Shown here in pieces: positions 45,838-48,967 of a stretch of DNA of 64,000 nucleotides. Below the pieces are notes generated by a model. The model was not told where the DNA came from, did no database searches, and saw only the letters and a list, made by a program, of their open reading frames with translations. Origin of the DNA: Syntrophomonas sp. Lineage in GTDB: Bacteria; Bacillota; Syntrophomonadia; Syntrophomonadales; Syntrophomonadaceae. The stretch's first letter is position 1, and the number at the start of each line of letters is the position of its first letter. The stretch lies in contig JAENYG010000001.1 in NCBI GenBank assembly GCA_016841875.1, positions 62,001 to 126,000 of the forward strand, written 5' to 3'. The position numbers and the translations under genes are program-made.

Positions 45838-45900
45838 CAGTTTTTATCATGGTGTCGGAGGCGGGACTTTACTTAATCAGTACCACGCAGGCTAATACGG

Positions 45901-46080
45901 CTAATTTGATGATTGCTCATACTGTTCAATATGCCACAGCTGCAAATACTGCAGCTCCTTCAGTTTTCTTTTGAGCCTCTTTTCCTCCCGGGGATCTGAG
46001 GCTTTTTCGATTTGCTGTTTCAGTGCCTGGATCCCTTCCAGGGTTTTCTCGATGGCTTCCTGCAGTTCTAAGTGGTTCAT
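45901..46080 (-). CDS. Small helical 59-aa protein
   Basis: The ATG at 46080 has GAGGTG 5 bases upstream. The product (MNHLELQEAIEKTLEGIQAL ... LQLWHIEQYEQSSN) is highly charged and almost certainly a single long helix or coiled coil (EKASDPREEKRLKRKLKELQ). A decayed copy lies at 41450-41600, and that copy's pattern of frame damage supports this frame as the once-coding one. It lies directly beside the repeat array and AbiF unit but on the opposite strand. Function unknown. Confidence 0.65.
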   Translation of the reverse strand: MNHLELQEAIEKTLEGIQALKQQIEKASDPREEKRLKRKLKELQYLQLWHIEQYEQSSN

Positions 46081-46220: not shown

Positions 46221-46249
46221 TAGACATTTACTTTGGTAATTCATATACT
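46221..46249 (+). promoter_or_regulatory. sigma-A promoter of the RNA-AbiF unit
   Basis: TAGACA, 17 bases, TATACT. Transcription would begin near 46256, at the foot of the structured RNA. Confidence 0.65.
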
Positions 46250-46256
46250 ATAAATA

Positions 46257-46320
46257 ACAGAACCCGCCACACCTCTCCCGGTACTTGTTACTGGTGACGT
46301 GACCCAAGGCGGGACGTTTT
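46257..46320 (+). ncRNA. Structured RNA upstream of abiF (abiF-motif type)
   Basis: CCCGCC (46263-46268) pairs with GGCGGG (46308-46313) to close a structure holding an inner hairpin, CCGGTA-CTTGT-TACTGG, and a GGTGACGTGACCC tract. A T-rich run follows the closing stem, as in an intrinsic terminator, 15-20 bases before the abiF start. A conserved RNA motif is known upstream of abiF-type genes (recalled from Rfam-type descriptions, not checked here). It could be the RNA antitoxin or regulator of the following protein. Confidence 0.65.
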
Positions 46321-46335
46321 ATTTATGGGTGGTTT

Positions 46336-47208
46336 ATGAGCAAAAAATTAAAGCCTCCACTTTCCGTTGAAGCGCAGGTGGAGTTACTAAAAGATAGAGG
46401 TTTAATAATTGAAGATGATGCATGCGCTATTGAAGTTCTTAGTAAGGTTAATTACTATAGACTAAGTGCTTATTCCCTAGGGTTAAGACACAATGACGTC
46501 TTTCATGAAGGCACCACATTTAATCAAATACACCAAATCTATCAATTTGATGCAAAGATCAGACATTTGTTATTGGCCGCTATTGAATCAATCGAAATAA
46601 AGTTTCGTACGAAGATAGCACATTACCTTGCCATGGAGCATGGAGTTATGTCACATCTCGATGAGAAGTTGTTTTTTAAAGCTGACTACCATAGGGAACT
46701 AATTGAGGAATTTGAAACAGAAAAAGAAAGGCAAAAGGATGCTGCATTTGTGAAGCATCATAACGAAGTCTATGGTGGCAATATGCCAATCTGGGCTGCC
46801 ATCGAACTATTTTCTTTCGGTATGCTTTCAAAGTTATACAGAAACCTCAAAATAGATTACCAAAGGAATTTTGTTCGCACATATTTACACAAAAATAAAT
46901 ATTATAACGACTATCTGGTAAGTTGGTTTAGGTGTTTGGTTGAGATACGAAATATTTGCGCTCATTATGGTCGTATTTACAATAGGATCCTAACCAGTAA
47001 ACCAAAGATATACCCACAATATGAAAGTTTATCCAACAGAAGAATTTTCCCAATGTTAATAGTGATTATCAATTTAATTGATGACCATACTGAAAGTACG
47101 ACCTTTATTACAAATATTGCAGCTCTTATTGCCGAATATCCTGTTATTAATTTAGAATTTATTGGTTTTCCTCCCAACTGGGAGGAAATACTTAAGAAGT
47201 CCAGATGA
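46336..47208 (+). CDS. Abi_2 family protein (AbiD/AbiF type abortive-infection factor)
   Basis: A 290-aa protein of the Abi_2 family. It starts KLKPPLSVEAQVELLKDRGL with the family's YYRLSAYSLGLR segment. The HEPN-like catalytic motif RNICAHYGRIYNR has Arg205 and His210 (RX4H), as in HEPN ribonucleases. It is downstream of a promoter and small structured RNA, and immediately outside the prophage lysis genes. By family knowledge, members block phage propagation and are linked to non-coding RNAs; an RNA-restrained toxic RNase is the working model here, and it is inference. The DNA is AT-rich compared with neighbours, suggesting transfer. Confidence 0.88.
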   Translation: MSKKLKPPLSVEAQVELLKDRGLIIEDDACAIEVLSKVNYYRLSAYSLGLRHNDVFHEGTTFNQIHQIYQFDAKIRHLLLAAIESIEIKFRTKIAHYLAMEHGVMSHLDEKLFFKADYHRELIEEFETEKERQKDAAFVKHHNEVYGGNMPIWAAIELFSFGMLSKLYRNLKIDYQRNFVRTYLHKNKYYNDYLVSWFRCLVEIRNICAHYGRIYNRILTSKPKIYPQYESLSNRRIFPMLIVIINLIDDHTESTTFITNIAALIAEYPVINLEFIGFPPNWEEILKKSR

Positions 47209-47478: not shown

Positions 47479-47769
47479 TCAACCATCCTCCTCTAGAGTT
47501 TCATCAATAGATTGTTTATCGCCCTGCCCCAAATCATATACCCCACAAGCTGCAGCTCCCAGAAGAACTCCTATCGCCACACCGGCCAGGATCGGCTGCC
47601 CGTTCTCTATGGATATGCCGACTCCCGTACTAATACCCACAGCCAGGGAAACTGCCGGCGCCCATTTAGTAGGTAACCCAGTCTTTTTAGCCACACCGAC
47701 AATGGAAGTCACTACCGCCAGGGCTGGTAGGCCGTATAAAGCATATTGAGTTAAATCCACATAAATCAC
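47479..47769 (-). CDS. Small phage membrane protein, putative holin
   Basis: A 96-aa protein with two or three hydrophobic segments (LYGLPALAVVTSIVGVAKK, WAPAVSLAVGISTGVGI, ILAGVAIGVLLGAAACGVY) and an acidic tail. Size, topology and position as last gene after the amidase fit a holin or holin-like partner. It follows the amidase with one base between. A second holin-family gene lies upstream of the amidase, so this one might act as a regulator or antiholin. Confidence 0.6.
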   Translation of the reverse strand: MIYVDLTQYALYGLPALAVVTSIVGVAKKTGLPTKWAPAVSLAVGISTGVGISIENGQPILAGVAIGVLLGAAACGVYDLGQGDKQSIDETLEEDG

Positions 47770-47770
47770 C

Positions 47771-48424
47771 CTACCTCTCTATAATTACCGTCTTGGCCGT
47801 TCCATCCCAGGTAACACCCATACCAATATCTCGCAACACTACAGCCGGAATATAAGTGGTATCCTTACCATCAACATTCAAGATAACTGACTTATCGATG
47901 GCCTTCCCTTCCATTACAACGTTTACATCCGGCAGATTAACCTGCGTATCAAGTTTAAGTTTTGCAAGCATATCTTTCTCCTCCAATCGTGCTCTCAGCT
48001 CAAGCCAGGGGAACCTCGCTCCCGGGCAAGCGGTCGCCATTACATCTTTATGTCCAATAACCTTAAGATTGCCGTATCTGCTGCGCAGGTCTTTGATCAG
48101 CTCTACCAGTGACTTCATCTGTGCAACTGTTGGTATCGAAGTTTGAAAATTCCCAGCTAGGACTATTCCTATACTGTCCCCGTTACCGGAAGGGCCTGAA
48201 TGAGATCCGATTGAATTTTCCGGCCGGCCTCGTTCAATCATGCCGTTGCTCCGTATAACATAGTGGTACCCAATACCCAGCCAGCCCTGGTTTAGATGCC
48301 ACTGGTGGATGGTTGCTGCTGACACATCTGCACTGGCACTATGGTGTATGATAATCCGGTTAGTACGACTTCGCCGTGTTGGTGTTCTCTTAAATTGGAG
48401 ATTGGTTTCCACTATCGCCAGCAC
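47771..48424 (-). CDS. Phage endolysin: N-acetylmuramoyl-L-alanine amidase with copper-amine-oxidase-like domain
   Basis: A 217-aa lysis enzyme. The Amidase_2/PGRP domain has IIIHHSASADVSAATIHQWH, GIGYHYVIRSNG and GHKDVMATACPG, giving the His, His, Cys zinc ligands and the catalytic Lys/His region. The C-terminal 50 residues (VVMEGKAIDKSVILNVDG and YIPAVVLRDIGMGVTWDG) match the small copper-amine-oxidase N-terminal-like domain often used for wall attachment. The GTG at 48424 has GGAGG 8 bases before it; the start region overlaps the upstream holin gene. It cuts the amide bond between muramic acid and the peptide. Confidence 0.85.
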   Translation of the reverse strand: MLAIVETNLQFKRTPTRRSRTNRIIIHHSASADVSAATIHQWHLNQGWLGIGYHYVIRSNGMIERGRPENSIGSHSGPSGNGDSIGIVLAGNFQTSIPTVAQMKSLVELIKDLRSRYGNLKVIGHKDVMATACPGARFPWLELRARLEEKDMLAKLKLDTQVNLPDVNVVMEGKAIDKSVILNVDGKDTTYIPAVVLRDIGMGVTWDGTAKTVIIER

Positions 48425-48908
48425 TAGCTTCACCTCCATCCTCAACGATCTGCTCCAGCTTCCGTTTTGAGAACCGCTTTAGCCAAGAGAATTCCTCAAC
48501 CCCAGCTTCAATAAAGTTCTCGCAAACACTCTCAAGTTCTACAAAGAAGAATATGCCATATATAACCGAACTGGCCACATAGGCATATTCGTAAGGGAAC
48601 CTGGTGATTTGAGCAGCGAAAATGCACATTATGAAGTAGGCGGGGATTTTTAACCTGGCTCCAGACAATGCTTTGTCACTCTGAATGTGGCCCTCTTTAA
48701 TAGCCAGGATGAAACCACCGTGGTTTACGCTTTCTGTGATCAGCCTGGATATTAGGTCGCAAGCTACGGCTATCCACAGAGCATAAAATGCTGCCCCTGG
48801 ATCCCCGATCAGATAAGCAAGTGTGGCCATAAAAATACCCCCCAGCCAGGCTAAGGGGTTCATCAGAGCATTTGTTAACATTTCACCAAAAGTTATTAAT
48901 ACATGCAT
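48390..48908 (-). CDS. Phage holin, phage_holin_4 type
   Basis: A 172-aa membrane protein with about four hydrophobic segments: MNPLAWLGGIFMATLAYLIG, FYALWIAVACDLISRLI, RLKIPAYFIMCIFAAQI and YVASSVIYGIFFFVELES. This is the pattern of the toxin-secretion/phage-lysis holin family. The ATG at 48908 follows GGGAGGAGG. The tail is charged. It would form membrane lesions releasing the amidase, whose start overlaps its 3' end. A terminator lies just upstream, so the lysis genes may have separate transcription. Confidence 0.85.
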   Translation of the reverse strand: MHVLITFGEMLTNALMNPLAWLGGIFMATLAYLIGDPGAAFYALWIAVACDLISRLITESVNHGGFILAIKEGHIQSDKALSGARLKIPAYFIMCIFAAQITRFPYEYAYVASSVIYGIFFFVELESVCENFIEAGVEEFSWLKRFSKRKLEQIVEDGGEASAGDSGNQSPI

Positions 48909-48925
48909 TACCAATCCTCCTCCCA

Positions 48926-48948
48926 AATAAAAAAGAGCCTGCCGGCTC
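48926..48948 (-). terminator. Terminator between tail-tip and lysis genes
   Basis: GAGCC-TGCC-GGCTC hairpin followed on the minus strand by TTTTTTATTT. Confidence 0.65.
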
Positions 48949-48967
48949 ATTTCCCATCACTCTCGCC

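Follow-up and report, generated by a model that had tools for sequence, protein, structure and literature searches.

Is the small structured RNA encoded immediately ahead of an Abi_2 family gene, beside the lysis genes of a Syntrophomonas sp. prophage, the antitoxin of the protein that follows it? This question is posed by a 64,000-nucleotide (nt) stretch of DNA (assembly GCA_016841875.1, contig JAENYG010000001.1, positions 62,001 to 126,000 of the forward strand; hereafter the window, whose own numbering is used below). An original prediction, made from the letters alone, had called the locus a candidate RNA-controlled HEPN toxin, and this proved largely right: the AbiF membership of the protein, its RX4H motif, and the associated RNA were all confirmed. 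We consider it probable (about 85%) that the locus is a prophage-carried type III toxin-antitoxin or abortive-infection module of the AbiF-AbiFr kind. At the window locus we observe the gene, the fold family and conserved motif of its product, a covarying RNA linked to it, a promoter, and a run of uridines (U-run). Systems of this kind have already been described experimentally in Clostridioides difficile and Prevotellaceae, and the window system is not a new type.

The abiF gene and its product

46336-47208, + strand: abiF, encoding an Abi_2 family HEPN ribonuclease (RNase) toxin (by homology) of 290 amino acids; identified by PF07751, PADLOC, PDB 8VZ6, and motif conservation

The open reading frame (ORF) is intact, with both catalytic-motif residues, R205 and H210, in place. 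Its product matches the full length of the PF07751 (Abi_2) profile (E 6e-48, 164 bits against a curated cutoff of 25.6) and also matches the PADLOC AbiD model (322 bits). The catalytic motif reads R205-N-I-C-A-H210 (codons 46948-46950 for R205 and 46963-46965 for H210), and R205, N206, C208, A209, and H210 are invariant in an alignment of 36 homologues. An Abi_2/AbiF protein with RX4H at Arg205 and His210, as first proposed, is therefore borne out.

The AlphaFold2 model of the protein (predicted local distance difference test score of 95.9) matches PDB 8VZ6, the PbAbiF-AbiFr system of a Prevotellaceae bacterium (Z 25.8, 2.2 Å over 281 residues, 28% identity). The two proteins share one fold over their whole length, although the window protein is divergent in sequence. 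Thus, the Abi_2 domain, the R-x4-H motif, and the fold of a solved AbiF all place the protein among the AbiD/AbiF (Abi_2) proteins. Its closest named relative is the AbiF of C. difficile phage phiC2 (41% identical). Single-sequence scans of viral and genome contigs returned no close protein relatives, and an alignment was required as the query.

The upstream RNA, its conservation, and its transcription

46221-46249, + strand: sigma-70-type promoter, TAGACA (46221-46226), 17-bp spacer, TATACT (46244-46249); 10 of 12 consensus bases
46256-46324, + strand: abiF-type RNA, putative antitoxin (AbiFr/RCd22-like), about 60-70 nt including the U-run; from a held-out covariance model and the minimum free energy (MFE) fold
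46263-46268, + strand: 5' arm of the closing stem, CCCGCC, pairing with GGCGGG at 46308-46313; double changes at all six homologous pairs in the wider set of homologues
46270-46272, + strand: 5' arm of the inner stem, CAC, pairing with GTG at 46299-46301; homologues swap to CGC/GCG or AGC/GCT
46273-46277, + strand: conserved CUCUC segment after the inner stem (alignments A3 and A4, below)
46278-46294, + strand: apical hairpin CCGGTA-CTTGT-TACTGG, a lineage-variable insertion relative to the Rfam consensus (loop comparison)
46302-46307, + strand: single-stranded linker ACCCAA (consensus NACCA/NCCCA), conserved in A3 and A4; candidate toxin-contacting segment
46308-46324, + strand: 3' arm GGCGGG and U-run ACGTTTTATTT, a probable intrinsic terminator or attenuator; U-rich tract in homologues

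Read in order, these elements give the architecture CCCGCC-A-CAC-CUCUC-(hairpin)-GTG-ACCCAA-GGCGGG. Every element that had been described for the RNA (about 60 nt, closed by CCCGCC/GGCGGG, with an inner hairpin) was found, and the tract GGTGACGTGACCC spans the 3' strand of the inner helix and the conserved linker. The consensus of the Rfam abiF family (RF03085) likewise has a 6-bp closing stem, a 1-nt bulge, a 3-bp inner stem, CUCU, and a short 3' linker. For the phiC2 relative, Rfam does detect an abiF RNA, and its printed consensus, CCCGCC-A-AGC-CUCUCA...GCU-CAAAUC-GGCGGG, shares the window architecture. The MFE structure of the window RNA reproduces the conserved fold, except that the two inner pairs, U-C/G-A, are shifted by 2 nt. 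This fold is seen in the trimmed RNA only, and folding of the 81-nt leader showed no excess stability.

The check proposed originally, a covariance-model search against the abiF RNA family, succeeded with a model built here and failed with that of Rfam. Our model (R1) was trained on 22 homologous RNAs, with the window RNA and its 64%-identical relative held out. It matches positions 46255-46323 (60 bits, E 5.6e-12), and this is the sole match both in the window and in the 3.97-Mb genome. A pairing-requiring descriptor, fixed after the first homologous loci had been seen, scores 28.5 in the window region compared to a maximum of 21.5 among 300 dinucleotide shuffles, and it reaches at least 22 in 92 of 103 upstream regions, a score attained by just one of the 103 reverse complements and one of 515 shuffles.

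Among homologues, R1 finds the RNA at 89 of 99 Abi_2 loci and then at three of three additional ones (one weakly, E 0.049), for a total of 92 of 102 loci, 22 of which belonged to the R1 training set. Around the branch of the window protein, most RNAs of this type escape the public model: among 41 loci tested, it detects 11, whereas R1 detects 39. Together with published work on C. difficile (PMC12373285), the held-out match agrees with the earlier statement that Abi_2/AbiF proteins accompany noncoding RNAs.

Lack of covariation in homologues had been named in advance as grounds for abandoning the proposal; compensatory changes were instead found. In alignment A3, which was aligned on sequence by MAFFT and replaced an earlier MAFFT alignment (A2) that misregistered sequences with a 5-nt linker, double changes occur at 8 of 11 pairs. 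Paired cells make up 100% in A3 versus 28-44% once partners are slid by 1-3 columns; the figure for A3 is biased upward because rows were picked with the pairing-requiring descriptor. In a model-fitted alignment of a wider set (A4), 9 of the 11 pairs show double changes, and double-change cells number 183, compared to 40 in shuffles.

The inner base-paired triple falls into classes CGC/GCG (61 loci), CAC/GTG (23), AGC/GCT (7), and GGC/GTT (1), with the window RNA in the CAC/GTG class and carrying an apical hairpin. Loops range from 10 to 37 nt and most are only 11 nt long, but 32 of the 33 loops of at least 16 nt form a hairpin with a folding energy of -2 kcal/mol or lower.

Some homologous loci depart from the one-RNA, one-gene pattern. 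Two or three abiF RNA copies lie at or near a single abiF gene at L031 (2283-2336 and 2400-2464), L088 (47-305), and L094 (611-665, 2294-2351, and 2417-2471); L031 combines a CGC/GCG copy with a CAC/GTG copy, and both have a -10-like box of their own. At L135 (1368-1475, - strand), the RNA is followed only by a short remnant of an Abi_2 N terminus, a truncated or decayed locus. Three Abi_2 homologues (L004, read as reverse complement, L020, and L024) lack the usual RNA and have upstream of them a promoter, a short RNA, and a separate terminator. These short RNAs might form a pseudoknot, drawn by eye, and possibly represent another class of antitoxin RNA.

The promoter that had been claimed was found, with a predicted transcription start near A46256. 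A TATAAT-like box (at least five of six bases) lies just upstream of the RNA at 75 of 92 loci, compared to 13% of random stretches. In 50 of the 92 loci the best -10 match begins exactly 19 nt ahead of the stem, the same spacing as in the window. On the 3' side, the U-run ACGTTTTATTT directly follows the closing stem, the ATG of abiF comes 22 nt after the stem, and in homologues the 14 nt past the stem average 8.4 T residues versus 4.0 in random stretches. The earlier claim of a terminator-like run thus holds for the U-run but not for a separate terminator, since the run continues the closing stem of the RNA itself. Closing stem and U-run probably form the RNA's own terminator upstream of abiF.

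Judged by its sequence, the locus has the layout of a type III toxin-antitoxin system, with a shared promoter, an RNA directly upstream of the toxin gene, and a U-run between them. In ToxIN and other classical type III systems, the gene of the RNase toxin is likewise directly preceded by that of an RNA antitoxin, with a terminator between them, but the toxin and RNA folds there are unrelated to those of the AbiF system.

The nearest experimental precedent is the AbiF of C. difficile phi027, which is toxic, requires R202 and H207, and is neutralized by the RNA RCd22 in cis and in trans (PMC12373285). The window system resembles AbiF_Cd-RCd22 (phi027/phiC2) in its 41%-identical Abi_2 protein with a HEPN RNxCAH motif, the abiF-type RNA directly upstream, a common ACAG 5' leader, and a prophage lysis-module neighborhood. 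It differs in its inner stem, which is AGC/GCU in RCd22 and CAC/GUG with an added apical hairpin in the window, and in its position: the window gene borders the outer end of its lysis module and runs on the other strand, whereas the C. difficile gene lies within the lysis module there. As cited in PMC12373285 and PMC12737573, the 8VZ6 structure is a HEPN dimer of PbAbiF with one noncoding RNA per subunit.

By analogy with these characterized relatives, the window AbiF would be toxic, would be neutralized by its RNA, and could, once triggered, protect against phages. One promoter would give rise to an RNA with the abiF fold. With the closing stem and U-run acting jointly as a terminator, transcription would mostly stop there, leaving an excess of about 60-nt antitoxin RNA, and occasional read-through would supply abiF mRNA. 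In C. difficile, experimental mapping has shown this arrangement of antitoxin RNA and read-through mRNA, with a hairpin distinct from the RNA serving as the terminator (PMC12373285). Two AbiF subunits would join by their HEPN folds to make an RNase whose interface contains R205 and H210, and a folded RNA bound to each subunit would keep that subunit inactive. Shortage or displacement of the RNA, for example when an invading phage shuts off host transcription, would then let free AbiF cleave RNA and stop growth.

Prophage setting and competing explanations

47479-48950, - strand: lysis module of the prophage (holin, amidase, second holin), facing abiF convergently; genomic context outside the abiF unit

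These holin-amidase-holin genes agree with the original placement of abiF against a prophage lysis module. The module closes a siphophage-type late operon (tail fibre, Tal, Dit, tape measure), and portal, terminase, replication, and repressor genes lie farther along the same region. Because of this position, abiF is prophage borne. A search for an attachment-site repeat flanking the prophage gave only one 15-bp candidate, which is inside an ORF.

Several observations weigh against the AbiF-AbiFr reading. The RF03085 model gives no match in the window at its gathering threshold or at E values up to 10. The window RNA is therefore not a member of RF03085 as Rfam defines it, and its fold, core sequence, and covariation qualify it as an abiF-type RNA in a wider structural sense. 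The stability of the trimmed RNA relative to shuffles is modest (z of -1.6 to -2.0), and the candidate Shine-Dalgarno sequence, GGGTGG, lies just 3 nt ahead of the ATG. In RCd22 the abiF motif occurs twice and the terminator is separate, whereas the window RNA has a single motif with a closing stem that leads directly into the U-run, and regulation may differ accordingly. Finally, protection from phages was not demonstrated for the C. difficile AbiF (PMC12373285).

The same RNA-protein pair could have been selected for prophage maintenance (addiction) and not for the exclusion of other phages: on loss of the prophage the short-lived RNA would vanish first and leftover AbiF would poison the cell. 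The location beside the lysis module fits this view, and the C. difficile authors raise the same possibility (PMC12373285). We regard it as a tentative alternative, given that plasmid-borne AbiF and AbiD confer phage resistance in lactococci (as cited in PMC12373285) and that solitary abiF RNAs in lytic phages (see below) suggest that AbiF is met as a threat. The two roles are not exclusive. It is unlikely that the RNA is purely a cis-acting leader or attenuator of abiF transcription that binds no protein. Its closing stem and U-run do resemble an intrinsic terminator 22 nt upstream of the start codon, and a cis effect is established for RCd22 (PMC12373285). However, the core (CUCU, YRC/GYR triple, NACCA) is conserved far past the needs of a terminator, the RNAs of relatives bind their protein (PMC12373285; PDB 8VZ6), and many phage copies retain the fold without promoter and U-run.

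Decay of the module into a nonfunctional remnant is more doubtful still. Several related genomes do have an abiF RNA without an intact abiF, but the window ORF is intact, its catalytic residues are present, and all RNA helices are paired. Least probable of all is a programmable, Cas13-like system in which the RNA guides AbiF to complementary transcripts. A relation between AbiF and Cas13 has been reported and Cas13 ancestry proposed (PMC12165695). Cas13d (Z 8.7) and Cas13b (Z 6.6) are also matched by the AlphaFold2 model, more weakly and with values that are common for helical proteins, and these matches and that report are in line with the original remark that Abi_2/AbiF proteins have been discussed as relatives of the Cas13 lineage. 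Cas13, however, has a guide, an array, and two HEPN domains per chain, whereas the window encodes a 290-residue, single-HEPN protein expected to act as a homodimer, and the upstream element is one self-paired RNA and not a CRISPR array. We rejected a guide role because the variable segment is a self-paired hairpin with no free spacer (the loop is just 11 nt in most homologues), and reviews deny AbiF any RNA-targeting specificity. With the window locus, a prophage case joins the toxin-RNA pairs of the kind that is believed to be similar to the Cas13 ancestor.

Solitary abiF RNAs in phages

The window system is of a known kind, and the more interesting lead is a set of abiF RNAs that lack a toxin gene. 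Searching 398 genomes of the phylum with R1 gave 29 matches in 27 genomes, and 14 of the 29 matches have no Abi_2 homology downstream. One of these, in a genome of the same family, is nearly identical to the window RNA (L131, 1501-1570, - strand); it lacks abiF and begins about 10 nt past the end of a recombinase-like ORF. The consensus RNA matches 44 phage records, mainly of Bacillus (31) and Enterococcus (9) phages and nearly always in stretches without annotated genes. A blastn search with the window RNA itself found no match in phage records, and there is no Bacillus phage among the phage records that encode Abi_2.

An exact 23-nt core pattern recovers at least 80 loci in viral contigs; among the matches listed, 6 have AbiF directly downstream, 64 do not, and 10 are too short to judge. 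The solitary call required at least 700 nt of flank, so that 64 of 70 loci with enough flank (again among the matches listed) have no AbiF downstream, although some viral contigs may be incomplete and highly divergent toxins could have escaped the AbiF search. The pattern did not include the closing-stem arms, yet these pair at 5.45 of 6 positions across 51 distinct arm pairs (with 42 different 5' arms), whereas 2,000 partner swaps averaged 3.33 and never exceeded 3.73. In the solitary RNAs, compensatory changes preserve the stems. A looser pattern for the CAC/GTG class gives 43 solitary and 8 AbiF-linked loci with an intact stem; chance matches are expected with it (16 of 59 solitary and 5 of 12 short-flank loci lack the closing stem), and we use it as support only. 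A whole-record search of 24 phage or viral records, including those of phiNIT1, SBSphiJ2, and phiSHEF4, found no Abi_2 gene, and R1 scores in 23 of these 24. By contrast, many RNA-carrying plasmid records (Cytobacillus, Metabacillus, Exiguobacterium, and others) encode an adjacent Abi family protein. The solitary RNAs collected from viral contigs and phage records (L138-L217, L258-L260, and L261-L340) include those of lytic Bacillus phages (phiNIT1 and SBSphiJ) and Enterococcus phages (phiSHEF4).

Only 19 of 98 solitary viral RNAs have an abiF-type -10 box, versus 69 of 86 abiF loci, and a U-run follows 35 of the 98 compared to 80 of the 86. Because these two elements are mostly lost and many of the RNAs are located in phage tRNA clusters, the solitary copies are not simply decayed abiF loci. 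A kept fold, a lost promoter and terminator, and an absent toxin in phage genomes form the pattern expected of an RNA decoy against AbiF. We give about even odds to the proposal that phages widely carry toxin-free abiF RNAs as decoys, which would bind host AbiF and hold it inactive during infection. They may instead have some other RNA function or protect prophage-free cells.

Precedents for such mimicry exist. Solitary CRISPR repeats act as RNA anti-CRISPRs (PMC10651486), one phage mimics ToxI (as cited in PMC10651486), and an RNA inhibitor of Cas13 receives mention in a review. Our literature search found no proposal of phage abiF RNAs as decoys, though it was limited and is not proof of novelty; an abiF small RNA is annotated in cyanophage S-CREM1 and is left unexplained there. 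If solitary RNAs do neutralize AbiF, RNA mimicry would be a general counter-defense against type III toxin-antitoxin systems, and phages in current laboratory use (SBSphiJ and phiNIT1 relatives) would resist AbiF owing to a solitary RNA of about 55 nt.

Two further features of the window prophage and its border can be recorded. Between the abiF promoter and the host-side genes, positions 45891-46080 (- strand) hold a small ORF of 59 amino acids (MNHLELQEAIEK..., coiled-coil-like). At the far end of the same prophage region (L108, 6675-12825) lie two genes for DNA methyltransferases and one restriction-helicase-like gene.
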